Source: Microbacterium sp. 1S1 (GTDB lineage: Bacteria > Actinomycetota > Actinomycetes > Actinomycetales > Microbacteriaceae). From it: a DNA stretch of 64,000 nt. The position numbers and the translations under genes were made by a program. Location: the NCBI RefSeq assembly GCF_008271365.1, contig NZ_CP043430.1:620001-684000 (forward strand), written 5' to 3'. The notes under the pieces are model-generated. The model ran no database searches, was not told where the DNA came from, and saw nothing but the letters and a program-made list of their open reading frames with translations. Shown in pieces: positions 14,336 through 34,020 of the stretch. How positions within the stretch are numbered: position 1 is the first letter of the stretch; each line of letters begins with the position of its first letter.

Positions 14336-17300
14336 TCAGCGTGCGATGCGGAGGGTGCGGACCTCGAAGGGGCGGAGGTGGAGCCCGCACCCGAGACGGG
14401 GCGCCTCGATGTCGTCCTCGATCAGGCTCGCCTCGCGCACCTCACGGTGGTCGAAACCGACCGACAGCTCGCCGACCGCCCGGCGCCCGAGCGCCTCGTA
14501 CACCCGCACGATGACGTCACCGGAGCCGTCGTCGGCAAGCTTCACCGCGGAGACGACGATCCCCTCGCCCGACACCTCCACCAGCGGCTCGACCTCGCGC
14601 GCCCCGCGGATCACCGTGGGGATGCTGTTGAGGCGGATACCCTCGGCGGTCGCGATCGCGGCGTCAGCGCCGATCACGAAGCCGACCTCGATCTCGTGCA
14701 GCCCGTGGTCCGTGTCCGGGTCGGGGAACCGCGGCGCCCGCAGCAGGGAGAGTCGCACGGTCGTGGTGACCCCGTCCTCGCCGACCTCGCGCGTCGTGTC
14801 GTATCCGTAGATCGAGTCGTTCACGAGGGCCGCGCCGAAGTCCTGCTCTCGCACCAGCACGAAGCGGTGCATCGACGTCTCGAACTTCGCCGCCTCCCAG
14901 CTCGTGTTCGTGTGGGTGACGCGCGCCTGGTAGCCGAACTGCGTCTCGGCTTCGGTGTGCGACGCCTGGATGTCGAGCGGGAAGGCGAGCTTGAGCAGCT
15001 TCTCGGTCTCGTGCCAGTCGACCTCGTTGCGGAGGTGCACGGTGCGCGAGCCCGGGGCGAGGAGGATCGTCTGCGTGATCGTCGATTCGGAGAACGGTCG
15101 CACGACGACGATCTGCGCGACACCGTTCACGACAGACGCCTCGATCGACGAGACCGCGGTGAGGTCGCTCACGCTGTTGCGGTAGTACCGGTCGATGTCC
15201 CACGCGTCCCACATGTTCGGGAAGTCCTGATGCAACTGGAACAGGTTCGCCGCCGCGCCCGGAGCGACGGCATCGCGGCCGGTGGCCTTGTCGACGGCGG
15301 AGACGATCAGCCCCTCGGCGGACACCAGCACCGAGACGAGATCGTTCTCCAGGCGCCACCCCGGCGAAATCGCCGAGCCTGCCGAAGAGTCCTCGGTGAG
15401 CGAGACCGGCTCTTCGACGGGCTCCGGGACCCACGAGGCACCGAGCGGCCGCCCCCGACCCACCGAGGTCGGCTCGAACCGCAGCTCTCGGTCGCCCTCA
15501 CCGGCGAGCGACCGACGCGCGGCGTCGGCGATGTCGCGTGCATCCGACAGCACGTCGGACAGCACGGAGACGGCCTCGCGGTGCACCCACGCGATCGAGG
15601 TGCCGGGCAGGATGTCGTGGAACTCGTGCAGCAGCACGGCCTGCCAGAGTCGGTCGAGCTCGGCGTACGGGTAGGCGGCGCCGGTGCGCACGGCGTCGGT
15701 GGCCGCCCACAGCTCCGCCTCCACCAGCGCGTGCTCGGCCCAGCGGTGCAGCGCCTTCGTCGCGTGCTGACTGGTGAGCGTGCCGCGGTGCAGTTCGAGG
15801 TAGAGCTCGCCGACCCAGACCGCGGGGTTCGGCAGCTCGGCCTTGGCGGCGTCGAAGAACACGTCGGGGTGCTCCCACACGACCTGTGCGCTGCCCTCGA
15901 GGTCGCGCAGGCGCTCAGCCTTGCCCGTCATCTCGCGCGTCGTGCCGCCGCCGCCGTCACCCCAGCCGACCGGGGCGATGGACCGCGAGCTGAGGCGGTT
16001 CTCCTTGAACTGGCGCGAGGCCTTCGCGACCTCCATGCCGCTCAGCTGCGAGTTATAGGTGTCCATCGACGGGAAGTGCGTGAACACCTGCGAGCCGTCG
16101 ATGCCCTCCCAGAGGAAGGAGTGGTGCGGGAACACGTTCTGCTGGTTCCAGGAGATCTTCTGCGTGAAGAACCACTCGAACCCGGCGCGGCGCATGAGCT
16201 GCGGGAGGGCCGGCGAGTAGCCGAAGCTGTCCGGCAGCCAGACGCCCTTCGACCGGATGCCGAACTCCCTCTCGAAGAACCGCTGCCCGTGCGAGAACTG
16301 CCGCACGAGCGACTCGCCCGTCGGCATCACGGTGTCGGACTCCACCCACATGCCGCCGAGAGGCAGGAAGCGCCCCGCGGCGACGGCGGCCTTGACCCGC
16401 TCCCACACCTCGGGGCGGTGCTCCTTGATCCAGGCGTACTGCTGCGCGCTCGACATGCCGTACTGGAAGTCGGGCTGCTCCTCGATGAGCGTGGTCATGG
16501 AGGAGGTCGTGCGCGCGACCTTGCGAATCGTCTCGCGCACCGGCCACAGCCAGGCCGAGTCGATGTGGGCGTGGCCCACCGCCGAGATCCGGTGCGCACT
16601 GGCCTCGGCCGGCGCCGCGAGGACATCCGCGAGCCGGGCCCGCGCGTCGCCGGCGGTCTCCACGATGTGCTGCAGGTCGAGCACGTCCAGCGCGTCGTCC
16701 AGGGCCTGCAGGATGCGCATGCGGCGTGGCGACGTCACGGGAAGTTCCGCCTGCAGTTCGAACAGCACCTCGAGGTCGAGGGACAGGTCGAACACCTCGG
16801 GTTCGAACACCGCGAGGTCGAGGCGCCGCAGCCGGTACAGCGGCTCCTTCGAGGAGGTGAGGATGTCGCCCTCCTGCGTCGGCAGGAAGGGGTGGTAGTC
16901 GAGGAGGACGGGATTGGACGCGCCCTCCAGGTACAGCTCGACGAGCTCGTCGCCCGCGGCGGTCTCGGCGATCGGCACCCACTGGTTGCGCGGGTTGATG
17001 CTCTTGATCGGCGTGCCGTCGGGGCGGTACGCGAGCGCCTCGCACTGGAACCCCGTCATGTTCACGTCGAAGCCCAGGTCGATCAGCGCCTCGACCCGGC
17101 GGCCAGCCCATTCCGCCGGCACCCGACCGGTGAGCTTGAACCATGTGGTCCCCCAGGCCGGGCCCCACAGCTCGCCGACCGCGGCCGGGGCGAAGGAGAG
17201 CGCCAGGCCCTCCGCCGGGGCGATGGGCTCTCCGGGGAGCTGGTGCGCCTCGACCGTGAGGGGCACCGCGGCCGAGTGGATCGCCGGGCGGATGCGCTCT

Positions 17301-17350
17301 TCGAGGACCCGCTTGACGCGGCCGACGGTGAGCGAGGTGTCGTCATGCAT
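14336..17350 (-). CDS. Alpha-mannosidase, glycoside hydrolase family 38
   Basis: This 1004-residue enzyme has the GH38 order: an N-terminal beta domain, a metal-binding catalytic domain, then beta-sandwich domains. GHAHIDSAWLWP at 259-270 supplies the metal ligands His260, His262 and Asp264. WLPDSFGYS carries the likely nucleophile Asp374. Bacterial GH38 enzymes remove alpha-linked mannose from the non-reducing end and need a divalent metal. No signal peptide is present, so it acts on imported oligosaccharides in the cytoplasm. It is divergent from a LacI gene. Two LacI-type sites lie in the 128-bp gap, one of them about 55 bp from this start. It belongs to the N-glycan locus that runs to 27.4 kb. 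Confidence 0.95.
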   Translation of the reverse strand: MHDDTSLTVGRVKRVLEERIRPAIHSAAVPLTVEAHQLPGEPIAPAEGLALSFAPAAVGELWGPAWGTTWFKLTGRVPAEWAGRRVEALIDLGFDVNMTGFQCEALAYRPDGTPIKSINPRNQWVPIAETAAGDELVELYLEGASNPVLLDYHPFLPTQEGDILTSSKEPLYRLRRLDLAVFEPEVFDLSLDLEVLFELQAELPVTSPRRMRILQALDDALDVLDLQHIVETAGDARARLADVLAAPAEASAHRISAVGHAHIDSAWLWPVRETIRKVARTTSSMTTLIEEQPDFQYGMSSAQQYAWIKEHRPEVWERVKAAVAAGRFLPLGGMWVESDTVMPTGESLVRQFSHGQRFFEREFGIRSKGVWLPDSFGYSPALPQLMRRAGFEWFFTQKISWNQQNVFPHHSFLWEGIDGSQVFTHFPSMDTYNSQLSGMEVAKASRQFKENRLSSRSIAPVGWGDGGGGTTREMTGKAERLRDLEGSAQVVWEHPDVFFDAAKAELPNPAVWVGELYLELHRGTLTSQHATKALHRWAEHALVEAELWAATDAVRTGAAYPYAELDRLWQAVLLHEFHDILPGTSIAWVHREAVSVLSDVLSDARDIADAARRSLAGEGDRELRFEPTSVGRGRPLGASWVPEPVEEPVSLTEDSSAGSAISPGWRLENDLVSVLVSAEGLIVSAVDKATGRDAVAPGAAANLFQLHQDFPNMWDAWDIDRYYRNSVSDLTAVSSIEASVVNGVAQIVVVRPFSESTITQTILLAPGSRTVHLRNEVDWHETEKLLKLAFPLDIQASHTEAETQFGYQARVTHTNTSWEAAKFETSMHRFVLVREQDFGAALVNDSIYGYDTTREVGEDGVTTTVRLSLLRAPRFPDPDTDHGLHEIEVGFVIGADAAIATAEGIRLNSIPTVIRGAREVEPLVEVSGEGIVVSAVKLADDGSGDVIVRVYEALGRRAVGELSVGFDHREVREASLIEDDIEAPRLGCGLHLRPFEVRTLRIAR

Positions 17351-17402
17351 GGTGGGGTTCTCCGGGCTCGACGGTGAGGGACTGGGTTCGATGCGTGCGG
17401 TT

Positions 17403-17419
17403 ACTAAAACGATCTAGCA
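17403..17419. promoter_or_regulatory. LacI-type operator 1 of the N-glycan locus (upstream of GH38 gene)
   Basis: ACTAAAACGATCTAGCA is an imperfect dyad around a central CG. It aligns with four other sites of the locus under the pattern ACT(A/T)nAnCGnTnnAGC. It is 53 bp upstream of the GH38 start. Confidence 0.68.
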
Positions 17420-17456
17420 CGGGAGTCTACGGTACCGTCTCCGTTGCTTTCGAGAG

Positions 17457-17472
17457 GCTAAACCGATCAAGT
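17457..17472. promoter_or_regulatory. LacI-type operator 2 of the N-glycan locus (upstream of lacI)
   Basis: GCTAAACCGATCAAGT is the same dyad in the opposite orientation (ACTTGATCGGTTTAGC). It ends a few bases before the LacI start codon and overlaps its ribosome-binding region, which suggests autorepression. Confidence 0.65.
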
Positions 17473-17478
17473 AGGGTG

Positions 17479-18510
17479 ATGCCTATGGCCCCGGGGAAAC
17501 GCGTGACGATCGCGGACATCGCGCGCATGGCGGGCGTCTCCCCCGGCGCCGTCTCGTTCGCTCTCAACGGTCGCCCCGGCGTGAGCGAGGAGACGCGGCA
17601 GCGCATCCTGTCGATCATCGAGGAGAACCACTGGCAGCCGAGCTCTGCCGCCCGTGCCCTCGTCGGCGCCCGGGCCAACGCGGTGGGGTTCGCCCTCGCC
17701 CGCCCGGCGCGCTCCCTCGGGTCCGAGGCCTTCTTCACCGACCTCATCGCCGGCATCGAGTCCCGGCTCTCCGAGAGCAAGGTCGGGCTGCAGCTCCGCC
17801 TCGTCGCCGACATCGACGAGGAGATGGAGGTGCATCGGCAGTGGCGTTCGTCGAATCAGGTCGACGGCATCATCCTCATCGACCCGCGTGACGACGACCC
17901 GCGCGGCGAGCGCATCACCGCCCTGGACGCCCGCGCGGTGATGATCGGCTCCCGCCCGTCCCCGGAGGGGGCGGTTCCCAGCGTGTGGATCGGGGACGAC
18001 ACCGTCGCGGAGACCCTCTTCTCCTACCTCGCAGCCCTCGGTCACACGCGCATCGCCTACGTCGCGGGCCCGGCCGAACTGGAGCACACCCGACTGCGCG
18101 CCGAGGTGCTGGAGCGGATGGCGGCGGACGGCATCGACGGCGAGGTCATCACGACCGACTTCTCCCCCGCCCGGGCCTCCGCCGTGACGCGCGCTCAGCT
18201 CTCCGGCCGGCAGCGTCCCACCGCGATCGTCTACGACAACGACGTGATGGCGGTCGCCGGCCTTCGTGTGGCCCAGGAGATGGGCAGGGCGGTGCCGCGC
18301 GACGTCTCCCTGGCGTCGTTCGACGACTCCGTCATCGCGGGTCTCATCAACCCCTCGATCACCGCGATGACCCGCGACACGTTCGAGCTCGGCGAGCAGG
18401 CCGCCACGCTCCTTCTGCAGCAGATCGAGGCCGGCGCTACGCTGCCGAGCGTCGAGGGCCCGACCCCCGTGCTCACCGCTCGCGAGAGCACGGCGCCACC
18501 ACCCCGCTGA
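17479..18510 (+). CDS. LacI-family repressor of the N-glycan locus
   Basis: This 343-residue protein has an N-terminal LacI helix-turn-helix (VTIADIARMAGVSPGAVSFALNG at about 9-31), a hinge helix (SSAARALVG) and a sugar-binding core with two periplasmic-binding-like lobes. The gene is divergent from the GH38 mannosidase. Similar operator sequences stand before each transcription unit to 27.4 kb, so it probably represses the whole locus until a mannose-containing ligand binds. ATG at 17479 is used; GTG at 17476 and ATG at 17485 are also possible, and the last has the best spacing to the TAGGG site. Confidence 0.9.
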   Translation: MPMAPGKRVTIADIARMAGVSPGAVSFALNGRPGVSEETRQRILSIIEENHWQPSSAARALVGARANAVGFALARPARSLGSEAFFTDLIAGIESRLSESKVGLQLRLVADIDEEMEVHRQWRSSNQVDGIILIDPRDDDPRGERITALDARAVMIGSRPSPEGAVPSVWIGDDTVAETLFSYLAALGHTRIAYVAGPAELEHTRLRAEVLERMAADGIDGEVITTDFSPARASAVTRAQLSGRQRPTAIVYDNDVMAVAGLRVAQEMGRAVPRDVSLASFDDSVIAGLINPSITAMTRDTFELGEQAATLLLQQIEAGATLPSVEGPTPVLTARESTAPPPR

Positions 18511-18554
18511 GCCCCCGCCTCCCCGCCCACACCCCGGGCTATCGCCGCGCGCAC

Positions 18555-18585
18555 CCCGGGGTCTCGACGACGACCCGGGGTCTCG
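18555..18585. repeat. Short direct repeat in the lacI/GH5 convergent gap
   Basis: CCCGGGGTCTCG occurs at 18555-18566 and 18574-18585 in the 81-bp gap between convergent genes. A related CCCCGGG lies just before it. It may be a degenerate terminator. No gene is present here. Confidence 0.35.
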
Positions 18586-18591
18586 GCGAAA

Positions 18592-19896
18592 TCAGACGAC
18601 GGTGTTGACGGAGGCGTAGCGCTCGACGCCCGAAGCCGAGAGATCGGGGTGGATGAGGCGGTGGATGCCGCGCGCCGCCAGCGCCGCGGGGTCCTGAGCC
18701 GTGCGGGAGGTCACCAGCGCGGGATCGTCGCCCGCCGCGCAGGCGTCGACCCACGCCTGGAAGACCGCTCCGCCGGGACTCAGCGCGGCACGGCTCACCG
18801 GCACCTCGCGCTCGTCGACGTCCACCACGATCGCCGTGGGACGGTCCGGAGCGGCGGTGCGGGCGCGCAGTTCGGGGATGAGTTCCGCGAACCGACGGCC
18901 GAGCGGCTTCGCCGCCCCGTCCTGGTCGATGAGCCCGAGGGAGTACTCCAGCTCCGGGAAATCGCCGAGTTCGCGGCTCACGTCGTGCGAACACCACCAG
19001 GTCACGCCCCAGAGGTTCTCGGTGCGCAGCGACGACCGCAGCGTCGCCTCGAGGAAGCCGGGCATCTCGGCCTCGTCGAGGCAGTTCGAGGGGGCGCCGA
19101 CCTCCTGCAGCCAGATGGGGCGGCCGGGATCGGCCGCGAACGCGCGGGAGAGCTCGATGAGGTACTCCGCGTGCCGGTCGGAGGCGACCGAGCGCCCTCC
19201 GTAGCGCTGCGCCGTGCCGTTGAAGATCCAGGAGTGGATGGTCGTCATCGCCCCCAGCCGCGACGCGTGGGTCGGCGTGAACCCGTGGCCGTCCATGTAC
19301 CAGACGGCGTCGTACTCGCTGTGCACGTGCGGCAGCCCCGGCGCGGCCTGCTCGGCGGCCGCGAGCAGCGCCTCGATCCAGGCTCCGGCCTCATCCGACG
19401 TGACGGGCCACGGCGACGGGTGCGTCTGCGCGGAGAACTGGTTCGTCTCGTTGCCGAGCGTGAGCCCGAGGAAGTTCGGGGCGTCCCGCAGCGCGCCGGC
19501 CAGCCGCTCCACGAGCTTCACCTGACCGTCCAGGGCGTTCGGGTCGGTGAACATGTTCCTGTCGTGCCACGTGGACAGCCAGGAGGGGACGAAGTCGAAG
19601 CTCGACAGGTGCCCCTGGATGACGTCGACGCTCGCGTCCATCCCGAACTCGGCGGCGAGGTCGACCATGGTGCGCACGTCGTCGATCGCCTTCGACCGGA
19701 TGAGGGTGCGGTTGGGCTGCAGGACGGTCCACAGCGGGAAGACGCGCACGTGGTCGAGGCCGAGCGCGGCGAGCGCGGCGAAGTCGCGGCGCACGTCATC
19801 CGGTGTGAAGTCGAGCCAGGAGTGCATCCACTCCTTCGACGGCGTGTAGTTCGCCCCGAAACGGAGAGGGGCATCGAGAGCGCCGCGCTGCGTCAT
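18592..19896 (-). CDS. Glycoside hydrolase family 5 enzyme, probable beta-mannosidase (GH5_18-like)
   Basis: This 434-residue TIM-barrel hydrolase has the two GH5 catalytic glutamates: acid/base Glu150 in TLGNETNQF and nucleophile Glu265 in IWLQEVGAP. It has no signal peptide, so it is cytoplasmic. The opening [19 protein letters not shown] and the overall length resemble GH5 subfamily 18. Characterised bifidobacterial members of that subfamily cleave Man-beta-1,4-GlcNAc, the disaccharide left after alpha-mannosidases trim an N-glycan released by an Endo H-type enzyme. The subfamily is assigned by eye; the neighbouring GH38, GH92 and Endo H genes make that activity the most sensible. An operator lies 51-67 bp upstream of the start. 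Confidence 0.82.
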
Positions 19897-19946
19897 GTGT
19901 GTTCGCACCTTTCGGACCGTGCCCTCCCACGAGGACATGTCGCATC

Positions 19947-19963
19947 ACTATAACGCTTGAGCG
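19947..19963. promoter_or_regulatory. LacI-type operator 3 of the N-glycan locus (upstream of GH5 gene)
   Basis: ACTATAACGCTTGAGCG matches the site before the Endo H gene (ACTATATCGCTTAAGCA) at 14 of 17 positions. It sits between the divergent GH5 and ABC-importer genes. Confidence 0.75.
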
Positions 19964-19984
19964 CCACCACCGACAGCGTGCGTC

Positions 19985-20031
19985 TTGACACCGGACGGAT
20001 CCGATGGTTTCATCTGCTAAAGCGTTGTAGT
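19985..20031 (+). promoter_or_regulatory. Promoter and LacI-type operator 4 upstream of the N-glycan importer
   Basis: TTGACA at 19985-19990 is a consensus -35 box, with a weak -10 (TTTCAT) 17 bp downstream. The operator TGCTAAAGCGTTGTAGT (20015-20031) directly follows the -10, where a bound repressor would block initiation. Its reverse strand, ACTACAACGCTTTAGCA, matches the other operators of the locus. Confidence 0.7.
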
Positions 20032-20078
20032 CCCGTCGTCGGACCGCGCCGATTCGCCCGCCTCGAGGAAGAAGCACG

Positions 20079-21377
20079 ATGAAAGTTCCCGCACGCATTG
20101 TCGCTCTGGCAACCTTCACGATCGGCGCCTTGGCGCTCGTGAGCTGCACGGGAGGCGCCGCCTCCGACGACGCCGGCCCCATCGACACGTCCGGCGAGCT
20201 CAGCGGAACCATCCAGTTCCAGACCTGGTCGCTGAAGAACGAGAAGTTCACGCCCTACTTCGAAGACCTCATCGCGGCGTTCGAGGAGGAGCACCCGGAC
20301 GTCACCGTCGAGTGGCTCGACCAGCCCGGCGACGGCTACCAGGAGAAGATCCTGAGCCAGGCGAACGCCGACACCCTGCCCGACGTGCTCAATCTCCCGC
20401 CGGACATCGCGTACCCGCTCGTCGCCGCCGGGAAGCTCGTCGACCTCGACGCCGCCGACCCCGACCTGAAGTCCGCGTACAACGCCGGCGCGTGGGACGC
20501 CTACAGCCAGTATCCCGGCGTCGAGGGCACCTACGGTCTGCCCTGGTACCTGTCCAGCGACGCGTCCTGGTGGAACCTGGCCCAGCTCGCGCCCTATGGC
20601 GTCACGGAGGAGAACCTGCCGACCACGGTCGACGAATTGCTCACCCTGGCCAAGGATGTCGCCACCGAGTCCGGCGGCAAGGTCCAGCTCCTCTCCTCGA
20701 TCCCGGCGCTCGACACCTTCACCGCGGCCGGCATGGAGGTCATCAACGATGAGGGCGAGTTCGACTTCAACACGGACGAGGCCGCCGCGATCATCGAGCA
20801 GTATGCGGACGCCTACGCCGCGGGCGCGATGCCGGCGGAGGCGCTGACCGGCGACTACGGCGGGAACGCGGAGGCGTACATCCAGGAGAAGGTCGCCTTC
20901 ACCACCGGCGGCACCGGCTTCACGACCGACCTCCAGAAGGACGCCCCGGCACTGCTGGAGAACACCGTAGCCACCCCGCGCCTCGGTGTCGCCCCGCTCT
21001 ACGTGCAGGGCCTCAACGTCTCCGCCGACTCCGACAACAAGGAAGCGGCCCTCGCTTTCGCCGAGTTCGCGACGAACGAGGAGAACCAGGTCGCGTTCTC
21101 CTCCCTCGCGGTCGGCACCGCGCCAGGCACGGCCGACGGCGGCGACCAGGTCGTCGAGAACATCGCCTCCTCGGTCACGGACGAGAAGCAGCTCGCCGCG
21201 ATCGATACCGTGTTCGGCGCGATGAAGGACGCCAAGGCGCTGCCGTTCCAGTGGACCTCGGACATGGCGACGTACATGACCCAGCAGATCGCGCTGGCCG
21301 TGAACGGCGAGGCCGACGCCAAGACGCAGCTCGACAAGATCGTCGAGTACGCCAACGCGAACCGCGTGGACCAGTGA
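20079..21377 (+). CDS. Sugar ABC transporter substrate-binding lipoprotein (N-glycan locus)
   Basis: This 432-residue family 1 extracellular solute-binding protein has a signal peptide ending in the lipobox LVSC (Cys24), so it is tethered outside the membrane. Sequences such as GTIQFQTWSLKN, FEEEHPDVTVEW and YGLPWYLSSDASWWN are typical of oligosaccharide-binding proteins of the MalE type. It presumably captures the mannose-rich oligosaccharide released by the Endo H-like enzyme. It is the first gene of a four-gene operon (binding protein, two permeases, GH92) and overlaps or abuts the next gene. Confidence 0.92.
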   Translation: MKVPARIVALATFTIGALALVSCTGGAASDDAGPIDTSGELSGTIQFQTWSLKNEKFTPYFEDLIAAFEEEHPDVTVEWLDQPGDGYQEKILSQANADTLPDVLNLPPDIAYPLVAAGKLVDLDAADPDLKSAYNAGAWDAYSQYPGVEGTYGLPWYLSSDASWWNLAQLAPYGVTEENLPTTVDELLTLAKDVATESGGKVQLLSSIPALDTFTAAGMEVINDEGEFDFNTDEAAAIIEQYADAYAAGAMPAEALTGDYGGNAEAYIQEKVAFTTGGTGFTTDLQKDAPALLENTVATPRLGVAPLYVQGLNVSADSDNKEAALAFAEFATNEENQVAFSSLAVGTAPGTADGGDQVVENIASSVTDEKQLAAIDTVFGAMKDAKALPFQWTSDMATYMTQQIALAVNGEADAKTQLDKIVEYANANRVDQ

Positions 21378-21418
21378 GCATGCGCGCGGACACCGGCACC
21401 CGGCAGCGGAGGTCGACG

Positions 21419-22306
21419 ATGAGATCCCACAAGTGGTTCACCCCGTGGCTGCTCCTCGCCCCCGCCGTGATCTGGGTGCTGGTGTTCGCGCTCTGGCCGT
21501 TCCTGAACACCGTCGTCCTCAGCTTCACGGATGCCCGCCCGCTGCGGACCCCGGAGTTCGTCGGCGGCGCGAACTACGAGCGCATGTTCGGCGATGAGAT
21601 GTTCTGGAACGCGCTCACCACCTGCCTCATCTACGTGGTCGTGTGCGTGCCGCTGCTCACGATCCTCCCCCTGCTCCTCGCCCTCCTCGTGCAGAAGAAG
21701 CTCCCGGGGATCGCGTTCTTCCGCACCACCTTCTACTTCCCCGTGATCGCCTCCGTGGTCGTGGTCGCCCTCATCTGGACGTGGCTGTTCGACAGTCGCG
21801 GCATCATCAACCAGACGCTCGAATTCCTCGGACTCATCGATCAGCCGATGGCCTTCCTCGTCGACCGCTGGCTGCTGCTCGGCTGCGCGATCCTGCTGAC
21901 CGTGTGGAAAGGCCTCGGCTACTACATGGTCGTGTACCTCGCGGCTCTGGGGAACGTCGGCAAGGAGCTGCACGAGGCGGCCATGCTCGACGGCGCGAGC
22001 TCCTTCCGCCGCTTCCTGTCGGTGACGATCCCCTCGGTGCGTGGGGCGATGCTGCTCATCGCCGTGCTCATCGCGGTATCCGCCATGCGGGTGTTCGCCG
22101 AGCTCGACGTGCTGTCGAAGAGCACGGGCGGCCCCGGAGGCTACGACATGTCGCTCGTGATGCTGATCCGTCAGGTCGGGTCCGGGTTGAACGGCAACAT
22201 CGGCTACGCGTCCGCGATCAGCGTGGCGCTGTTCCTCCTGACGCTCGTGCCGCTGGCGGCGATCGCGTTCATGAACCGCGAGAAGAAGGCGAAGGTCTCC
22301 GCATGA
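21419..22306 (+). CDS. Sugar ABC transporter permease, MalF type (N-glycan locus)
   Basis: This 295-residue inner-membrane protein has six predicted helices. The EAA loop is ELHEAAMLDGASSFRRFLSV, which docks the ATPase. ATG at 21419 was chosen because GGAGG lies 6-7 bases upstream. A GTG at 21374 overlapping the previous stop by 4 bp, or ATG at 21380, would add 13-15 residues. It pairs with the next gene to form the membrane channel. Confidence 0.92.
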   Translation: MRSHKWFTPWLLLAPAVIWVLVFALWPFLNTVVLSFTDARPLRTPEFVGGANYERMFGDEMFWNALTTCLIYVVVCVPLLTILPLLLALLVQKKLPGIAFFRTTFYFPVIASVVVVALIWTWLFDSRGIINQTLEFLGLIDQPMAFLVDRWLLLGCAILLTVWKGLGYYMVVYLAALGNVGKELHEAAMLDGASSFRRFLSVTIPSVRGAMLLIAVLIAVSAMRVFAELDVLSKSTGGPGGYDMSLVMLIRQVGSGLNGNIGYASAISVALFLLTLVPLAAIAFMNREKKAKVSA

Positions 22307-23235
22307 CGACTCTGACGACGCCCCCGGTGGAGAGCACGCCGCCCACGGAGGAGACGCCGCGACACACCCGCGAGCGCATCTTCCGCCGCCGCGGCTCGGG
22401 CGACTTCAGCAAGCCGACGCTCGGCGGACTGATCGGGCGCTACGCCCTGTTGCTCTTCGTGCTCTTCCTCGTGATCGGGCCCTTCGTCTGGCAGCTCTCC
22501 ACCTCGTTCAAGGGACCGCAGGAGAATATCTACTCGTTCCCGCCCGAACTCATCCCCCGCGACCCGACGTTGCAGAACTACGCCACCGTCGCCGACATCG
22601 TCCCCGTGTACCTCTACGCGTGGCACTCGCTGCTCGTCTCCCTGGGCACCGTGCTGAGCAACGTGATCCTCGCCACGTTCGCCGGTTACGCCCTGGGCTG
22701 CATGCGCTTCCGCGGCAAGTGGATCGTCATGGGCATCCTGCTGTCCACGCTGCTGTTCCCCGGTGAGGTCACCGTGACCAGCAACTTCCTCACCATCCGC
22801 GCTCTGGGCCTCGCCGACAGTCTGTGGGGCGTCTTCCTTCCCGGTGCGATCAGCGCGATGAACGTGCTGCTCGTCGCGACGGCCTGCCGGATGATCCCGA
22901 AGGACGTGCTCGACGCGGCGACCGTCGACGGCGCGACCACGTGGCAGCGTATCCGGCACATCGTGTGGCCGAATATCCGCGGCATGGTCTCCGTGGTGGC
23001 GATCTTCGCCTTCATCGGCGCGTGGGACGACTACCTCTGGCCGCTCATCGTGCTCTCGGACCCGGCGAAGTACACGCTGACCGTCGGCATGGCCTATCTC
23101 AACAGCAGCTTCTCCGTCGACCCCCGGCTCATCGCCGCCGGCACGATGATCGCGCTGGTGCCGATCGTCATCATGTTCTCGTTCACGCAACGCTTCTTCT
23201 TCAAGGGCGTGCAGGAGGGCGCCCTGAAGGGGTGA
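22303..23235 (+). CDS. Sugar ABC transporter permease, MalG type (N-glycan locus)
   Basis: This 310-residue permease has a longer, charged N-terminal cytoplasmic segment, then six helices. The EAA-like loop is VLDAATVDGATTWQRIRHIV. It overlaps the preceding permease by ATGA and the following GH92 gene by GTGA, showing tight translational coupling. No ATPase gene is in this operon, so the importer probably uses a shared MsiK-type ATPase, as is common in actinobacteria. Confidence 0.92.
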   Translation: MTTLTTPPVESTPPTEETPRHTRERIFRRRGSGDFSKPTLGGLIGRYALLLFVLFLVIGPFVWQLSTSFKGPQENIYSFPPELIPRDPTLQNYATVADIVPVYLYAWHSLLVSLGTVLSNVILATFAGYALGCMRFRGKWIVMGILLSTLLFPGEVTVTSNFLTIRALGLADSLWGVFLPGAISAMNVLLVATACRMIPKDVLDAATVDGATTWQRIRHIVWPNIRGMVSVVAIFAFIGAWDDYLWPLIVLSDPAKYTLTVGMAYLNSSFSVDPRLIAAGTMIALVPIVIMFSFTQRFFFKGVQEGALKG

Positions 23236-26200
23236 GCCGGCCGCTGCTCCGCCCGGCCGCCGGTCCCGCGGATCCCCCCTCGTCCCGCCCGCACGCCGGC
23301 GTGCTCCCGAGCCCCGTGTTCGCCTTCACGTTCGACCCGTCCCGCGGAGAGCAGCGGATCGACCTCCCCGGTCTCGACGACATCGCGCTCACCCCGGACA
23401 CGGTCCTGCACTGGGCTTTCTACGCGGACGGGCCAGGGGCCACCCTCGCTCCGCATGCCGCTCTCGCGGTCACCGTGGACGTGCGCGGCGCGGACGGCAG
23501 CAGGCTGAGCGACATCGCCGCCGTCCGCGACCGTTACGACTTCCCCCTCGGGGCCGAAGAGCAGTTCGCCGCCCGGTGGAGCATGCCGGAGCAGTGGAAC
23601 GCCGACACCGTCGCCCTCGCGCCCCTCGGCTCCGGCCCGGCCACGGTCGAGCTCGTCCTCGGGACGCCCGGGCTCGCGGCGGCCCCCGGCGCGCGCACCG
23701 TCGTCACCGGCTTCGTGCAGGCCCTCGTCGCGGAGCACACGGCCCCCGCTGACCTCCCGCCCGTCGAGCGCGTCGACACCCGACGCGGCTCACACTCCGG
23801 CCCCCGCTTCTCTCGCGGGAACACGATTCCCGCCGTCGCTGTGCCCCACGGGTTCACGTTCGTCACACCCGCGACCGATGCGACGGACGCGCGCTGGCCA
23901 TACCGGCCGTTCGTGCACGACGACCCGCAGGGGCGGCGCCTCGAAGCCCTGCAGTTCTCGCACCAGCCCAGCCCGTGGATCGGCGATCGGTCGGTCCTGC
24001 AGCTCATGCCGTTCCTCGGGATGCCGGCGGCGGACCGGGAGACCCGGCGCCGCTGGATCCGCCCGGGAAGCGAGCGCGCACGCCCGCACGAGTACTCCGC
24101 CGACCTCGGCGACGGTCTGCGCGTCGAGATGACCGCGACCTCGCATGCCGCCGCATTCCGCGTGCGCGCCGATGACACGGCCTCGGTCGGATTCGTCATC
24201 GATCAGCTCGCCGGCGACGGCCTCCTCACCTTCACCGACTCCGGGTTCGAGGGCTGGATCCCGGAGGGACCTGAGGACTGGGGGAACGCGCCCCGTTGCT
24301 ACTTCGCCGGAACGGTGCAGAGCGAGACGGAGATCTCCCGCGGCACGCTGGCCGACCACGAGCGGTCCCGGGTCGCCGGCTTCATCCTCGGTGCAGGCGC
24401 GATCGAGGTGCGGATCGGGGTCTCGTTCCTCTCCGTCGCACAGGCCCGGCACAGCCTCGGTCTCGAAGCGCCGCCCGCCGTCTCCTTCGACGAGCTCCGC
24501 GACCGCGCTGCGACGGCATGGAACCGGCTGCTCGGACGGGTGACGATCCCTCCGCTCCCCGAGGCTGAGCTCCCGTTCCGCGCCCTGGCCGACGACGAAC
24601 AGCGCTCCCGGATCGCCGCGGCGCTCCACCGCATGCACCTGTACCCGAACACGGCCGCGGAGAATGCGGGCACTGCCGTGGCGCCGGAGTGGCGGTTCGC
24701 GGATGTCTTCGCCCCGCGGACGAGGTTCGGGGAGACCGCGACGGGGGCGCCGGCGGCGGACGGCGAGCTCGTCGTCAACAACGGCTACTGGGACACGTAC
24801 CGGACCGAGTGGCCGGCCCTCGCGCTTCTCGACCCCGCCCTGACCGGACGTCTGCTGGACGGACAGCTCGCACAGTACCGCCGCGGGGGCTGGATGGCGC
24901 GGTGGAGCGCCCCCGGGTACGTCGACAGCATGGTCGGGACGTCGAGCGATCAGATCTTCGCCGACGCTGCCCGATGGGGTGTGGCGTTCGACCGGGAGGC
25001 GGCGTTCGAGAGCGGCTGGCGCCATGCGTGCGAACCGGGACCGGATCCGCGGCGGGGACGCAAGGGCATCGGCCGCGGGCGCTTCCTCGGGTTCATCCCG
25101 TCGGACGTGCCGGAGGGGATGAGCTGGAGCATCGAGAACGCGGTGAGCGACGCCGCCCTCGGCCGATTCGCCGCACAGCTCGCGACGACCGTGCCGGATG
25201 CCGCGGCGAGATATCGGGCGTTCGCGCGGTACTTCTCGAATCGGTCCCGGTCCGTACGAGCACTGTTCGACCCGGCGTCCGGGTTCTTCCGCGGTCGCTC
25301 GGCGGACGGCTCCCTCGCGTCGGACTTCGACCCCCGGGTCTGGGGCGGCGACAACGTGGAGACGAACGCGTGGGGGATGTCGGTCGGCACGGTCCATGAC
25401 GGACCGGGACTCGCCGCACTCCACGGCGGCCGTGCAGGCCTCGGTCGGCACCTGGACGCCCTCTTCGGGGAACCCGAGACCGCCGACGAACGCTTCGGCG
25501 GAGCCTACGGCACGGTCATCCACGAGCAGCGCGAAGCCCGCGCCCAACGATCCGGCATGTGCGCACTGTCGAATCAGCCGGCGCACCACATCCCGTTCAT
25601 GTACGCCTTCACCGACCGGCCGTGGCACGGCGCGGGCCTCGTACACGGTCTCGCACGCCGCCTGTTCGCGGGCGGCCACATCGGCCAGGGCTTTCCCGGC
25701 GACGAGGACAACGGCGAGATGAGCGCCTGGTGGCTCTGGGCGGCGCTCGGCCTGTATCCCCTCGAACTGGCCTCGGGGACGCTGCGGATCGGATCGCCCC
25801 TCTCGGACGACATCCGCATCGCGCGCGGCGACGGTTCCTCGCTGCGGATCCGCTCGCGACGGAGCAGCGCCGCAGCGCACGTCCTGCAGGAGGCACGGCT
25901 GGACAGACGCCCTCTCCCCACCGCCGATCTGCCCATCGACGCACTCCGCGGCGACGCCGTGCTCGACCTCGTGTTCGGCACCGACCCGGCGCGGGCACTG
26001 GAGACAGGGGAAGACGCGCTCGACGGGGAACCGTGGCACCGTGACCTCACGGGCGAAGCGGGGCGGGCTGTCGCCTCCCCCGATACCCACGAGGCATCGC
26101 GGCTGTTCGACGACGGCGCTCCGGACGGCGATGAGGGCGTCCGTCTGCTGCCGGGGGCCTGGGCGGGGTGGCGGTTCCCCGCGCCCCGCGCGGTCACCGA

Positions 26201-26426
26201 CGTCACCCTCACGAGCCGCGAGGGCGCGGGGGCACGGGTGCTGCGCTGGGAGGCGGAGGGCCCTGAGGGGCGATGGCAGCCGCTGTCCACGACGCACCGT
26301 GAAGACCTGGTGCCCGACCGTACGACGCCGTTCACCCTGGAGACGCGGGTCGTGACCTCGGCCATCCGCGTGCGGGCGGAGGCCGAGGTCACGCTGCGTC
26401 AGATCGAGCTCTTCGATCTGAGCTGA
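23232..26426 (+). CDS. GH92 family alpha-mannosidase with C-terminal F5/8-type-like domain
   Basis: This 1064-residue enzyme has the GH92 hallmarks: the NNGYWDTYRTEWP block, the SDQIFADAARWG region and the strongly conserved GFPGDEDNGEMSAWWLW stretch. GH92 enzymes are calcium-dependent exo-alpha-mannosidases, often alpha-1,2 or alpha-1,3 specific, that trim high-mannose N-glycans. After about residue 940 a discoidin-like (F5/8 type C) module follows (SRLFDDGAPDGDEG to RQIELFDLS). There is no signal peptide, unlike many Bacteroides GH92 enzymes, so trimming would occur after import. The GTG start at 23232 overlaps the permease stop by 4 bp. The stop lies 1 bp from the convergent Endo H gene. 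Confidence 0.93.
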   Translation: MSRPLLRPAAGPADPPSSRPHAGVLPSPVFAFTFDPSRGEQRIDLPGLDDIALTPDTVLHWAFYADGPGATLAPHAALAVTVDVRGADGSRLSDIAAVRDRYDFPLGAEEQFAARWSMPEQWNADTVALAPLGSGPATVELVLGTPGLAAAPGARTVVTGFVQALVAEHTAPADLPPVERVDTRRGSHSGPRFSRGNTIPAVAVPHGFTFVTPATDATDARWPYRPFVHDDPQGRRLEALQFSHQPSPWIGDRSVLQLMPFLGMPAADRETRRRWIRPGSERARPHEYSADLGDGLRVEMTATSHAAAFRVRADDTASVGFVIDQLAGDGLLTFTDSGFEGWIPEGPEDWGNAPRCYFAGTVQSETEISRGTLADHERSRVAGFILGAGAIEVRIGVSFLSVAQARHSLGLEAPPAVSFDELRDRAATAWNRLLGRVTIPPLPEAELPFRALADDEQRSRIAAALHRMHLYPNTAAENAGTAVAPEWRFADVFAPRTRFGETATGAPAADGELVVNNGYWDTYRTEWPALALLDPALTGRLLDGQLAQYRRGGWMARWSAPGYVDSMVGTSSDQIFADAARWGVAFDREAAFESGWRHACEPGPDPRRGRKGIGRGRFLGFIPSDVPEGMSWSIENAVSDAALGRFAAQLATTVPDAAARYRAFARYFSNRSRSVRALFDPASGFFRGRSADGSLASDFDPRVWGGDNVETNAWGMSVGTVHDGPGLAALHGGRAGLGRHLDALFGEPETADERFGGAYGTVIHEQREARAQRSGMCALSNQPAHHIPFMYAFTDRPWHGAGLVHGLARRLFAGGHIGQGFPGDEDNGEMSAWWLWAALGLYPLELASGTLRIGSPLSDDIRIARGDGSSLRIRSRRSSAAAHVLQEARLDRRPLPTADLPIDALRGDAVLDLVFGTDPARALETGEDALDGEPWHRDLTGEAGRAVASPDTHEASRLFDDGAPDGDEGVRLLPGAWAGWRFPAPRAVTDVTLTSREGAGARVLRWEAEGPEGRWQPLSTTHREDLVPDRTTPFTLETRVVTSAIRVRAEAEVTLRQIELFDLS

Positions 26427-26427
26427 C

Positions 26428-27360
26428 TCAGTGCGACGCCGCCCGGTACAGGGTCGCCTCCCCCTTCAGCGCCTGGGTGATCTCGGAGAGATAGGCCGAC
26501 TGATTCGTCGCGGTGAGGTTGTACGCGACGTAGACGCCGTACCCGTCCGCCACCGTGCGGCGGGCGAAGTCCGCGGCCGTCGTGGCGTTCGTGTTCGCGA
26601 GATCGATGGCCGCGGCGCCGAGGCGACCACGATCCTCCAGACCCGGCACCGTGGGCGCGTCGTAGGTCGGGTAGTACGGGTTCCACGCGTGATCGAGCAC
26701 GCTGCCGGCGTCGAACAGACCGAAGTCCGTCGTCGTGTAGGACGGGCCGATCGCATACAGCGTGATGAGCTTGTCCGGCCCGAGACGATCGCGCAGCGCC
26801 GAGGCCAGCCAACCGAAGGACTGCGCGTTCGGCTGCGGCGTGCCGTTCGCCCCGTAGTTGCTCCACTCGTCGTCGAAGTCGATGCCGTCGAGGCCGTATG
26901 CGGTCACGGTGTCGGCGAGTTGCGCGGCGAAGGCGTCGGCGTCTGCGTAGGAGGTGAAGTTCGCGAAACCCGCGCCCTGATGGTTCCCCAGCACCGACAG
27001 GAGGACCTTGGTGCCCTGGGCCTGCAGCGGGCGGATCTGGTTCTCCGCATCCTGCAGCGTCTCGGTGACGCGCTCGTTGAGATGGAGGACCGCCTTCTCG
27101 CCGTCGTAGTTGATGTTGGCGGCGAAGATCATGGCCAGATCGACGGCGGGACGGCCGGACTCGGCGAGCGTGTAGTCCGCCACGTTCGCTAAATCGTTCG
27201 AGTTGACTTCCACGTAGACCGCCAGCTTCGGCTCGACGGCCTCGACGTCGGCGACGGCCGCGGCGGAGGCGGTGAGTGCGGCAGCTCCCGCCGCGGCGAG
27301 CACCGCGACGGCAGCGAGACCCCGTCGTAGGCGGGAGGATCGTGCGGGTGAGTTACTCAT
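26428..27360 (-). CDS. Secreted endo-beta-N-acetylglucosaminidase, GH18, Endo H type
   Basis: This 310-residue protein has a signal peptide: basic residues, then an alanine-rich hydrophobic run with probable cleavage after ASAAAVA. The GH18 catalytic motif DGIDFDDE places Asp158, Asp161, Asp163 and the acid Glu165. LLSVLGNHQGAGFANF and DHAWNPYYPTY closely match Streptomyces Endo H as I remember it. Endo H cuts the chitobiose core of high-mannose and hybrid N-glycans on glycoproteins, releasing oligomannose with a single GlcNAc. It is the only secreted hydrolase of the locus, so it supplies the substrate for the importer and the cytoplasmic mannosidases. An operator lies 63-80 bp upstream. Confidence 0.93.
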   Translation of the reverse strand: MSNSPARSSRLRRGLAAVAVLAAAGAAALTASAAAVADVEAVEPKLAVYVEVNSNDLANVADYTLAESGRPAVDLAMIFAANINYDGEKAVLHLNERVTETLQDAENQIRPLQAQGTKVLLSVLGNHQGAGFANFTSYADADAFAAQLADTVTAYGLDGIDFDDEWSNYGANGTPQPNAQSFGWLASALRDRLGPDKLITLYAIGPSYTTTDFGLFDAGSVLDHAWNPYYPTYDAPTVPGLEDRGRLGAAAIDLANTNATTAADFARRTVADGYGVYVAYNLTATNQSAYLSEITQALKGEATLYRAASH

Positions 27361-27422: not shown

Positions 27423-27440
27423 ACTATATCGCTTAAGCAG
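27423..27440. promoter_or_regulatory. LacI-type operator 5 of the N-glycan locus (upstream of Endo H gene)
   Basis: ACTATATCGCTTAAGCAG is the best dyad of the set: CTTAAGCGATATAG reads nearly the same on both strands around CG. It places the secreted enzyme under the same repressor as the importer and mannosidases. Confidence 0.72.
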
Positions 27441-27493: not shown

Positions 27494-29356
27494 ATGCGCG
27501 CCTTCCGACTCCTCTGGCGGTACCCCGTCATCACGCTGACGGTCGTCGCGTTCGTCGCGGTGGGTGTGCTGCACGCCGCCGGCGAGGAGGCGATCGGGCG
27601 GTGGGTCGCGACGGTGTACGTGGCCGCCGTTGTGGTGTGGACGCTCATCGGCATGGTGCGCGACGTGCTCCGGGGCCACGTCGGACTCGACATCCTCGCC
27701 GTCGTGGCCATGGTGGCGACGCTTGCGGTGGGCGAGTACATCGCGGCGCTCATCATCGTGCTGATGCTCTCGGGCGGAGAGGCGCTGGAGGACTTCGCCG
27801 GCCGCCGGGCGAAGCGCGACCTCTCGGCCCTCCTCGACCGCTCGCCGCGCACCGCGCACGTGCTCACCCATCCCGACGATGCGGACTCGGACGCGGCGAC
27901 GGAGGTGCCCGTCGACGACGTGGAGGTCGGCGATGTCCTGCTCGTGCGCCCGGCGGAGATCGTCCCGGTGGACGGGACTCTCCTCACGGGCAGCGCGTCC
28001 TTCGACGAATCGTCGCTGACCGGAGAGAGCCTTCCCGTCGCACGCGGTTCCGGCGACGAGGTGCCGTCCGGGGCAATCAACGGCAGCCGGGCCGTGCGCC
28101 TCCGCGCGGTGCGCACGGGGGCCGACAGCCAGTACCAGCAGATCGTCGCCCTGGTCGCCGGAGCGGAGGCCTCGCACGCGCCCATCGTCCGCCTCGCCGA
28201 CCGCTTCGCGATCCCGTTCACCGCCGTCGCGCTCGTGCTCGCCGGTACCGCATGGGCGCTCTCCGGCGACGCCACACGGTTCGCCGAGGTGCTCGTGCTG
28301 GCCACGCCGTGCCCGTTGCTGATCGCCGCCCCCGTCGCCTTTCTCGGCGGTCTCTCCCGGGCCGCGAAGTCCGGTGTCATCATGAAGAGCGGTGCGGTGA
28401 TCGAGGAGATCGCCCGCGTGCGCTCCGCTGCGTTCGACAAGACAGGGACGCTCACCCAGGGGCGGCCGGAACTGGTCGACGTCCGCCCCGCCGACGGTTT
28501 CGACGCGGACGGTATCCTCCGGCTCGCCGCCTCGGCCGAGCAGTACTCCTCGCACGTGCTCGCCGAGGGCATCCGCCGGGCGGCCGCCGCCCGGGGCCTG
28601 ACCCTCCACGCGGCGACGGAAGCGAGCGAGACCGCGACGAACGGCGTCTCCGCGACGATCGGCGGTCGCACGGTCGTGGTGGGCAAACCGGCGTACGTGG
28701 CCTCCCTCGCCCCCGACACCGCGCGGGCGGAACTCGCGCCGGGGCAGGCCGCCGCCTACGTGGCCGTGGACGGCCGGTTCGCGGGGGTCCTCGTCCTCGC
28801 CGATGCCGCCCGTCCCGAGGCGCCCGCCGTGATCTCCTGGCTGCGGCTGCACGAGGTCGACCGGCTCGCGATGCTGACCGGTGATGTGGAGACCACCGCG
28901 GCGTCGATCGGCCGCCAGGTCGGGATCGACGAGATCCACGCCGAGCTCCTGCCACCCGAGAAGGTGCGCCTGGCCGCCGAGATGCATCCGCGGCCCGTGC
29001 TCATGGTCGGCGACGGGGTGAACGACGCCCCGGTGCTCGCGGCGGCCGACATCGGCATCGCGATGGGCGCGAAGGGCGCGACGGCCGCCGGGGACGCCGC
29101 CGACATCGTCATCCTCGTCGACTCGCTCGCGAAGGTCGTGGACGCCGTCTCGATCGGACGCCACACCCTGCGCGTGGCCTTGACCGCGATCTGGATCGGG
29201 ATCGGCCTGAGCGTCGGACTGATGGTCGTCGCGATGACCGGCGTCATCCCCGCGGTGGTCGGCGCACTGGTGCAGGAGCTCGTCGACCTCGCGACGATCC
29301 TCTACGCCCTCCGCGCGCTGAGCGGCCCGCCGAGCGACCTGCGCCCGTCCGGCTGA
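27494..29356 (+). CDS. Heavy-metal translocating P-type (P1B) ATPase with TPC motif
   Basis: This 620-residue membrane pump has an actuator motif TGES at 176-179, phosphorylated Asp315 in DKTGTLT and the nucleotide hinge GDGVNDAP. The metal-selecting helix carries TPC (271-273) in ATPCPLLIAAP instead of CPC, CPH or SPC. The TPC form defines a little-studied P1B subgroup linked by some authors to nickel or iron. There is no N-terminal HMA metal-binding domain; the protein starts almost directly with membrane helices. Metal specificity cannot be told. It is divergent from the Endo H gene and unlikely to belong to the glycan locus. Confidence 0.88.
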   Translation: MRAFRLLWRYPVITLTVVAFVAVGVLHAAGEEAIGRWVATVYVAAVVVWTLIGMVRDVLRGHVGLDILAVVAMVATLAVGEYIAALIIVLMLSGGEALEDFAGRRAKRDLSALLDRSPRTAHVLTHPDDADSDAATEVPVDDVEVGDVLLVRPAEIVPVDGTLLTGSASFDESSLTGESLPVARGSGDEVPSGAINGSRAVRLRAVRTGADSQYQQIVALVAGAEASHAPIVRLADRFAIPFTAVALVLAGTAWALSGDATRFAEVLVLATPCPLLIAAPVAFLGGLSRAAKSGVIMKSGAVIEEIARVRSAAFDKTGTLTQGRPELVDVRPADGFDADGILRLAASAEQYSSHVLAEGIRRAAAARGLTLHAATEASETATNGVSATIGGRTVVVGKPAYVASLAPDTARAELAPGQAAAYVAVDGRFAGVLVLADAARPEAPAVISWLRLHEVDRLAMLTGDVETTAASIGRQVGIDEIHAELLPPEKVRLAAEMHPRPVLMVGDGVNDAPVLAAADIGIAMGAKGATAAGDAADIVILVDSLAKVVDAVSIGRHTLRVALTAIWIGIGLSVGLMVVAMTGVIPAVVGALVQELVDLATILYALRALSGPPSDLRPSG

Positions 29357-32912: not shown

Positions 32913-32962
32913 GGTCTCTCCTTCGATCCCGACGGGCCGTCCTGGCCTGGGATCAGGCTACG

Positions 32963-32982
32963 CGAAATCGATTTCAAGACGC
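32963..32982. promoter_or_regulatory. LacI-type operator upstream of the kinase-isomerase operon
   Basis: GCGAAATCGATTTCAAGACG contains the perfect palindrome GAAATCGATTTC (32965-32976). The same 20 bases occur at 40021-40040 before the importer operon, so both are probably bound by the LacI protein encoded at 33037-34020. Confidence 0.85.
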
Positions 32983-33036
32983 AAGGCGACGGCCCCCACT
33001 GTGCGATTCCGTCCGCGCGCCGTGGTTCCGCACGGC

Positions 33037-34020
33037 TCACGCCCGCGAGGCTGCCCGCTGCACCTCACCGGTGAGGACGACCGTCCGCGCGGGTTGCACG
33101 TCGCCCTTGATCCGCTCCAACAGCATGCGCGCAGCCGTCACGCCCATGTGCCTCGCCGGGAGCCGAACGACGGTGACGGCGGACGGGGACAGCGTCGTGA
33201 AAGGCAGCGACCCGATCACCGCGACGCCGAGTTCGGGCGGGGTGAGGCCGCGCTCGGTGAGGACCTGGATCGCGCCGACGCCGATGAGGTTGTTGCCGGC
33301 GACCACCGCGTCCGGCGGGTCCGACAGCGCCAGCAGCTCCTCCATCGCGGCACGCCCGCCGTCGACGCGGAACGTGGCGAAGCGCTGCAGGGAGGAGAGG
33401 TCGCGAGCCGGGTCGGCCGCCGCAAGCGCTTCCCGCCAGCCCTCCGCCCGCTCGATGGCGGTGTCGATGTGCGCGGGCCCTCCGATGTACGCGATCCGCC
33501 GGTACCCGGCATCGAGCAGGCTCCGCGTCGCTGCGGCGCCGGCCTCCCGGTTCGCCATCACCACGCTGTCGATGTCGGAGGCGGTGTGCCGGTCCACCGC
33601 GACGACGGGCCGCCCGGCGGCCATGACGGCTCCGAGATCCGAATGCTCATGAGCGGTCGCGATGATGACGCCCGACATGTTCTCGGCGAGCGCGATCCGA
33701 AGATACGTCGCCTCCTTCTCGAGCTGTGCGTCGGAATTGCACAGCACGACGGAGAAGCCCGCCTCGGACGCGGCGTCCTCCACGCCGCGCGCCATCTCCG
33801 TGAAGTACGGGTTCTCGATGTCCGGGATCACGAGCGCGATCACCTCGGAGGTCTGCGTCCGCAGCGTGCGCGCGGTGCGGTTGGGGGTGAAGCGGAGCTC
33901 CTCCGCCGCCGCCCGCACGGCAGCCGCCTTCTCCTCCGACACGCTCGTTCCGTTGAAGACCCGGGAGACCGTGGCCGGTGAGACGCCCGCCCGCTGCGCG
34001 ACGTCGTAGATCGTGGCCAT
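33037..34020 (-). CDS. LacI-family repressor of the second sugar locus
   Basis: This 327-residue protein has the LacI helix-turn-helix (TIYDVAQRAGVSPATVSRVFNG at residues 3-24), a hinge (TPNRTARTL) and a sugar-binding core. It lies between the aldolase-containing operon and the kinase-isomerase operon and follows the same direction. Operators with identical sequence stand before both operons, and a related dyad stands before its own start. ATG at 34020 is used; GTG two codons upstream is possible. Confidence 0.9.
   Translation of the reverse strand: MATIYDVAQRAGVSPATVSRVFNGTSVSEEKAAAVRAAAEELRFTPNRTARTLRTQTSEVIALVIPDIENPYFTEMARGVEDAASEAGFSVVLCNSDAQLEKEATYLRIALAENMSGVIIATAHEHSDLGAVMAAGRPVVAVDRHTASDIDSVVMANREAGAAATRSLLDAGYRRIAYIGGPAHIDTAIERAEGWREALAAADPARDLSSLQRFATFRVDGGRAAMEELLALSDPPDAVVAGNNLIGVGAIQVLTERGLTPPELGVAVIGSLPFTTLSPSAVTVVRLPARHMGVTAARMLLERIKGDVQPARTVVLTGEVQRAASRA

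Follow-up and report, generated by a model that had tools for sequence, protein, structure and literature searches.

GENES OF THE LOCUS

The window analyzed here, 64,000 nucleotides of Microbacterium sp. 1S1 (positions 620,001 to 684,000 of contig NZ_CP043430.1), holds at 14336 to 27360 eight genes, all intact open reading frames (ORFs). They encode a GH38 alpha-mannosidase, a LacI-family regulator, a GH5_18 beta-mannosidase, a lipoprotein solute-binding protein (SBP), two ATP-binding cassette (ABC) permeases, a GH92 alpha-mannosidase, and a secreted Endo H (Table 1). An original prediction, made from the letters alone, had joined an Endo H-like enzyme, an importer, GH92, GH38, GH5, and LacI in one locus, and Pfam, NCBIfam, and phmmer searches recovered each of them. 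We consider it very probable that these genes form a compact, jointly controlled high-mannose N-glycan utilization locus under one LacI repressor, judging from gene identity, conservation of specificity residues, conserved linkage, and operator conservation, all of which are evident in the sequences.

Table 1. Genes and operator-like sites of the locus, in window coordinates
Feature	Position	Strand	Basis
GH38 alpha-mannosidase, 1004 amino acids (aa), no signal peptide seen	14336..17350	-	Four Pfam domains over cutoff; best solved relative 7ufr, 807 bits
Operator-like palindrome, GH38/lacI divergent region	17403..17418		Pattern search
Second operator-like palindrome, just 5' of lacI	17457..17472		Pattern search
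LacI-family regulator; start ATG 17485 or 17479 (ORF opens 17374)	17485..18510	+	LacI and Peripla_BP_3 over Pfam cutoff
GH5_18 beta-mannosidase, 448 aa; Glu164 and Glu279 at catalytic positions	18592..19938	-	phmmer to 9y4v, 7lr7, 7lqx, 6gvb
Operator-like palindrome, GH5_18/SBP divergent region	19947..19962		Pattern search
Second operator-like palindrome, GH5_18/SBP divergent region	20016..20031		Pattern search
Solute-binding lipoprotein (LVSC lipobox by eye)	20079..21377	+	SBP_bac_8 96.2 bits, SBP_bac_1 94.4 bits
ABC sugar permease A	21374..22306	+	BPD_transp_1 39.1 bits
ABC sugar permease B	22303..23235	+	BPD_transp_1 45.2 bits
GH92 alpha-mannosidase, 1064 aa; Trp249, His764-Glu765, Glu710, DED at 824	23232..26426	+	Pfam 305 bits; alignment to solved GH92
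Secreted Endo H (GH18), 310 aa	26428..27360	-	NF045482 359.7 bits (cutoff 300); 275 bits to PDB 6ve1
Operator-like palindrome within Endo H coding sequence, holding TTA codon 57	27188..27203		Pattern search
Operator-like palindrome 5' of Endo H	27423..27438		Pattern search

ENZYME IDENTITY AND PREDICTED PATHWAY

The secreted enzyme exceeds the cutoff of the NCBIfam equivalog model Endoglyc_H and belongs to the same family as Streptomyces plicatus Endo H (PDB 6ve1 and 1edt). In this family the catalytic D-x-E closes the motif DGxDxDxE, which here reads DGIDFDDE with Glu165 and is invariant across 8 aligned homologs. The enzyme most likely cleaves the high-mannose chitobiose core. A chitinase assignment was rejected, as the Endo H model is exceeded and Pfam GH18 scores only 39 bits.

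The GH5 protein had no Pfam match at an E value of ≤0.001, and its placement in GH5_18 rests on full-length phmmer similarity to solved structures of GH5_18 enzymes. These structures were 9y4v (857 bits), ScGH5_18 (7lr7; 500 bits), BlGH5_18 (7lqx; 471 bits), BlMan5B (463 bits), and 6gvb of Cutibacterium acnes (355 bits), compared with only 51 bits for the GH5 mannanase 7bob. The score of 9y4v is about that of congener orthologs with ~85% identity; no paper naming PDB code 9Y4V was found in an open-literature search. Glu164 (in GNETNQ) and Glu279 (in WLQEVG) occupy the acid/base and nucleophile positions, and both motifs are present in the aligned 9y4v and 7lr7. The C. acnes enzyme is a demonstrated exo-beta-1,4-mannosidase (PMC6160142), and GH5_18 enzymes split the disaccharide of mannose (Man) and N-acetylglucosamine (GlcNAc), Man-beta-1,4-GlcNAc (PMC6160142; PMC12691653). 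The earlier call of a beta-mannosidase-type GH5 is borne out by phmmer, in that the protein lies closest to GH5_18, the N-glycan-core beta-mannosidase group.

For GH92, the preferred start is GTG 23232, which overlaps the stop codon of the permease gene, and the closest solved relative is 7nsn. Alignments to solved structures match Trp249, His764, and Glu765 with Trp477, His996, and Glu997 of NnGH92 from N. novalis and with the triad of BT3990. Because a Trp/His/Glu triad at the +1 subsite is described as the alpha-1,2 determinant of GH92 (PMC5930347; PMC10167667), the enzyme, by alignment, keeps the alpha-1,2-mannosidase triad. GH38 has four Pfam domains (38N, 306.6 bits; 38C, 183.8 bits; mid, 89.9 bits; 38C2, 44.1 bits), and its closest solved relatives are 7ufr to 7ufu (807 to 711 bits), listed as "Alpha-mannosidase," which we take to be GH38 enzymes of Bifidobacterium longum. 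It is not a mannosylglycerate hydrolase by the equivalog model for that enzyme (84.9 bits; cutoff, 1138).

Signal peptides and the SBP lipobox were judged by eye. The N terminus of Endo H resembles a signal peptide and none was seen in GH38, GH5_18, or GH92, which would place Endo H outside the cell and the other three enzymes inside. The pathway as we infer it, including activities, transport specificity, inducer, and a DNA loop, would begin with Endo H freeing oligomannose-GlcNAc from glycoproteins outside the cell. The SBP and the two permeases, all over Pfam cutoffs, would then import Man(5-9)GlcNAc, driven by an ATPase encoded elsewhere. In the cytoplasm, GH92 would strip alpha-1,2-mannose, GH38 would strip alpha-1,3/1,6-mannose, and GH5_18 would split the remaining Man-beta-1,4-GlcNAc, after which GlcNAc and mannose would join central metabolism via genes elsewhere (nagA/nagB). 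No GH20 occurs among the locus genes scanned, and none would be needed if Endo H leaves one GlcNAc. LacI would bind two palindromes at each of GH38/lacI, GH5_18/SBP, and Endo H until repression is relieved by the glycan taken up or by one of its breakdown products. The same flow, from Endo H through import and GH92/GH38 to GH5, had been proposed before, and it agrees with the Endo H equivalog match, the GH5_18 similarity, the GH92 triad, the lack of visible signal peptides on the internal enzymes, and the common operator-like sites.

CONSERVATION OF THE LOCUS

Among 149 congener genomes, GH5_18 occurs in 42 and Endo H in 20, and every Endo H genome carries GH5_18 (Fisher P = 1.6e-13, treating related genomes as independent). 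In 18 of these 20, the two genes share a contig and are no more than ~10 kb apart; in G023 and G030, they are on different contigs. We compared the neighborhoods of 40 of the 43 GH5_18 matches outside the window, taking 10 to 20 kb of DNA for each and leaving out G023, G030, and G108. Gene order and orientation are those of the window in 10 of the 40 (L057 to L065 and L067, some with inserts of several kb); Endo H is inverted in L068 to L072, and all genes are rearranged in L073. GH92 accompanies Endo H in 16 of 17 Endo H loci (the exception is L066), compared with 2 of 23 loci without Endo H (L074 and L075).

To look further afield we used the best 80 of 327 Endo H relatives from species genomes, with up to 10 kb of flank on each side, several contigs being short. 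GH5_18 lies in the flank in 33 of the 80. These comprise 14 of 15 Microbacterium records (the other sits on a 6.9-kb contig), all 15 Curtobacterium records, and single records from Arthrobacter sp. AQ5-06, Leifsonia aquatica, Myceligenerans pegani, and Labedella endophytica. Within the same flanks it was found in none of 29 Streptomyces records, in contrast to its linkage here, and in none of the remaining 17. GH92 is present at an E value of ≤1e-10 in 19 of the 33 linked loci and in only 2 of the 15 from Curtobacterium. In a class-wide sample of 394 genomes, Endo H was found in 6 and GH5_18 in 37; absences in this sample are soft, since scoring was limited to 4 to 5 candidates per genome. Three of the six Endo H carriers are congeners, and the other three have Endo H and GH5_18 on different contigs.

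Taken together, these comparisons identify the locus as a conserved cassette with a gene set common in Microbacterium and present in linked form in other genera. As a separate observation, three Enterococcus records (L117, L118, and L119) have Endo H-like genes of 51 to 55% identity without the rest of the locus, perhaps through interphylum transfer.

AN OPERATOR-LIKE PALINDROME MARKS THE LOCUS

Comparison of three control regions revealed a 16-bp palindrome, consensus RCTNNANCGNTNNAGY, 5' of every transcription unit of the locus. Numbered from the start of the long ORF, the first helix-turn-helix residue of the LacI regulator is 45. A strict form of the palindrome, RCTHVANCGNTBDAGY, has 4 matches in the window, with 0.06 expected, and 5 genome-wide, of which 4 are in the locus; its reversed control has 1. 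The loose form, RCTNNANCGNTNNAGY, occurs at 7 places genome-wide, 6 of them in the locus. A search allowing 3 mismatches did not discriminate: it gave 8 matches, compared with a mean of 3.3 in shuffled sequence, and 2 of 100 shuffles also reached 8. The sole loose copy outside the locus is at G000:C1:1139157-1139172.

The palindrome is conserved along with the genes. The 40 congener neighborhoods (789,712 bases) contain 104 sites, compared with 1 for the reversed form, and nearly all lie 5' of GH38/lacI, GH5_18/SBP, or Endo H. It is present in 28 of 28 loci whose lacI has at least 58% identity to that of the window and in 4 of 12 others, a threshold picked after inspection of the table and applied to loci that are related to each other. 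Likewise, among the 80 named relatives, it was found in 33 of 33 Endo H-GH5_18 loci versus 7 of 47 others, and in Curtobacterium and Leifsonia examples the sites fall between lacI and the SBP gene. The palindrome is probably the binding site of the locus LacI, as predicted from these patterns, and would mark a single LacI regulon. Paired sites in the locus are spaced by 54, 69, and 235 bp, and the counterparts of the 69-bp pair are ~100 bp apart in most relatives; such pairing suggests cooperative or looped repression.

A PALINDROME AND A TTA CODON WITHIN ENDO H

The second Endo H palindrome lies inside the gene, 235 bp from the 5' copy, and spans the codons for N-S-N-D-L-A. The leucine, Leu57, is encoded by TTA, the sole TTA among 1166 Leu codons in 25 window genes. 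Palindrome and TTA are kept together in all 13 orthologs of the clade (window included), and 7 more distant orthologs have similar residues with neither. In a codon comparison of 12 orthologs (one was left out because its start motif was not found), all 12 use TTA at this position, and the 15 other invariant Leu columns all mix CTC, CTG, CTT, and TTG. This arrangement suggests that Endo H is repressed through a DNA loop between the 5' and in-gene sites or through a roadblock.

SISTER LOCI WITH EXCHANGED MODULES

Loci with the same core that lack Endo H also lack GH92, again except L074 and L075. Of these loci, five encode a secreted EndoS/EndoT-type GH18 (PF23916; 287 to 305 bits in the three scanned), and L092 has GH85 in place of Endo H. 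An EndoS-type query matched 7 of the 149 genomes, each of which has GH5_18 but lacks Endo H; by the two queries, 15 of the 42 GH5_18 genomes have neither endo-enzyme. Proteins of the EndoT group from Microbacterium testaceum and Propionibacterium acnes were noted in 2012 (PMC3408457). Identity to the window's SBP is 65 to 93% in Endo H loci (43% in L073) and 41 to 47% in EndoS-type loci, consistent with importers adapted to the different glycans that are released. Two EndoS-type loci have the palindrome beside the EndoS-type gene (L089 and, by position, L085). In another group without Endo H, an SGSH_C-type sulfatase adjoins GH5_18 (L077:7752-9179, and also L078, L079, and L080), which hints at a sulfated N-glycan substrate.

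These comparisons lead us to a broader and more tentative proposal, which as a whole we regard as possible but fall just short of favoring. There may be a LacI N-glycan regulon across Microbacteriaceae and beyond, with a fixed core of GH38, GH5_18, importer, LacI, and operator and with exchangeable modules, either Endo H plus GH92, an EndoS/EndoT-type GH18, or GH85. Endo H would be silenced by a loop to a coding-sequence operator, forcing a near-forbidden TTA in a genome of 70% GC.

OBJECTIONS AND ALTERNATIVE EXPLANATIONS

Several observations weigh against the interpretation of the locus as a LacI-controlled N-glycan regulon. The Pfam scan found no transporter ATPase among the eight locus genes; in favor of the pathway, one gene elsewhere in the genome is over the cutoff of the UgpC/MsiK-type model (G000:C1:52876; 471.8, cutoff 432) among 112 matches in total, mostly other ABC ATPases. 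A nagA-like gene falls slightly below its curated cutoff (218.2; cutoff, 225.65); nagB, which counts in favor, is over its own (243.5; cutoff, 236.9). Because no GH125 was found in the genome, GH38 must cleave both remaining linkages alone. GH92 is not obligatory, being absent from L066 and, at the threshold used, from 13 of 15 Curtobacterium loci. Across the genome, the loose palindrome and its reversed control are equally frequent (7 places each), so that only the clustering of the palindrome in the locus is significant. Finally, the codon identity of the N-S-N-D-L segment, 0.983, is equaled by 2 of 65 windows, both at the catalytic motif. This last point bears on whether protein sequence or shared descent, rather than operator function, accounts for the conserved internal palindrome, whose 13 carriers are indeed close relatives in which NSNDL is conserved as protein. 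We doubt this explanation, as the rarity of TTA among Leu codons of the window stands against its fixation in the orthologs, where other invariant Leu columns vary, and as the distant orthologs keep similar residues without TTA or palindrome.

Soil habitats are rich in fungi, and the locus might act mainly on alpha-mannan and mannoproteins of yeasts or other fungi, N-glycan cores being one component of the substrate. Passages of PMC10167667 consider the closest solved GH92 relative in connection with both yeast mannan and N-glycans, and they cite a GH92 alpha-1,2-mannosidase of Microbacterium sp. M-90 as characterized in 1994. This use is nonetheless unlikely, given a genome without detected GH125, no GH76 or GH99 in the locus (these two were searched at the locus only), and the presence of Endo H and GH5_18, which would be useful only where the chitobiose core is attacked. 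It would be more surprising still if Endo H were a chance neighbor of a core locus importing some other beta-mannoside or N-glycan fragments freed by other organisms. True, L074 and L075 keep everything else, including GH92, and 22 of the 42 GH5_18 genomes have no Endo H; however, Endo H never occurs without GH5_18 in the 149 genomes, shares the operator, and has a conserved internal copy, and its loss in L074 and L075 fits scavenging of released products. We regard such a chance association as very improbable and retain the LacI-controlled N-glycan locus.

COMPARISON WITH KNOWN SYSTEMS

The logic of the pathway is already known, and the regulatory part is the freshest. Nearest in kind is the C. 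acnes N-glycan locus 1, a GH38/GH5_18/GH20/GH18/ABC locus described in 2018 (PMC6160142), which is also actinobacterial and groups GH38 and GH5_18 with an ABC importer, a regulator, and a GH18 endo-enzyme. As presented in the relevant passages of that paper, its GH18 is EndoT-like (41.7% to EndoT, Table 3) with no secretion signal listed, and GH20 is present with GH92 unmentioned, whereas here there is an Endo H with a signal peptide and GH92 without GH20 in the locus.

In the high-mannose system of B. longum reported by Cordeiro in 2022, an endo-enzyme reportedly acts outside, the intact glycan is imported, and GH38 and GH5_18 act inside, as we propose here. By the portion of PMC10154615 that deals with it, B. 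longum has three GH38 enzymes and GH125, whereas this locus has one GH38 plus GH92, and no GH125 was found in the genome. The N-glycan regulator of B. infantis, NglR, is described as a NagR paralog (PMC9599254), in contrast to the LacI found here. The Streptococcus pneumoniae CPL system with EndoD and ABCNG (2017; PMC5215778) likewise combines a GH92 alpha-1,2-mannosidase, GH38, an SBP-dependent importer, and an endo-enzyme. In the passages covering it, however, GH92 acts outside before EndoD (GH85), the genes are scattered, and GH125, GH20, and ROK take part, whereas GH92 here has no visible signal peptide and the genes form one locus. The original prediction was right that similar logic exists in bifidobacteria and streptococci.

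Its suggestion that the gene set may be undescribed stands in part. In searches of open papers, some of which were read in passages, we came across no account of the gene set, of its operator, or of the site within the coding sequence, and an open-literature search found no paper linking GH5_18 with Microbacterium. The set is, however, common in that genus and present in others, and the C. acnes locus precedes it. Comparable systems have been reported in bacteria of the gut and skin; the version in a soil-type bacterium and its control switch look little described.

If the interpretation is correct, common environmental and plant-associated actinobacteria feed on the glycans of eukaryotic glycoproteins, and a single 13-kb regulon holds the entire pathway. 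The locus would be a convenient source of Endo H, along with the importer and repressor that naturally accompany it, and a possible sensor of released high-mannose glycans. The sister loci would amount to a natural experiment, as the same core is paired with a different endoglycosidase and binding protein from one type of locus to another, and the coding-sequence operator would offer a clear example of codon choice being shaped by regulation.

NEIGHBORING GENES AND REJECTED ORFS

Opposite-strand ORFs at GH5 (18649 to 19953, plus strand) and at the neighbors of Endo H had no Pfam match, nor did the ORF at 23790 to 26297 (minus strand), which is a shadow of GH92. Directly beside Endo H, at 27494 to 29356, lies a heavy-metal P-type ATPase gene of the cadmium family, which is not at that place in several relatives. 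Positions 29764 to 34026 hold a likely sugar operon with an L-fucose-isomerase-C-like protein, an FGGY kinase (nearest to xylulokinase, below cutoff), and a LacI of its own. We rejected these sugar genes as part of the locus on the grounds of that separate LacI, the lack of the palindrome, and an adjacency not kept in all relatives. In congeners, they are often near the N-glycan locus and sometimes elsewhere.

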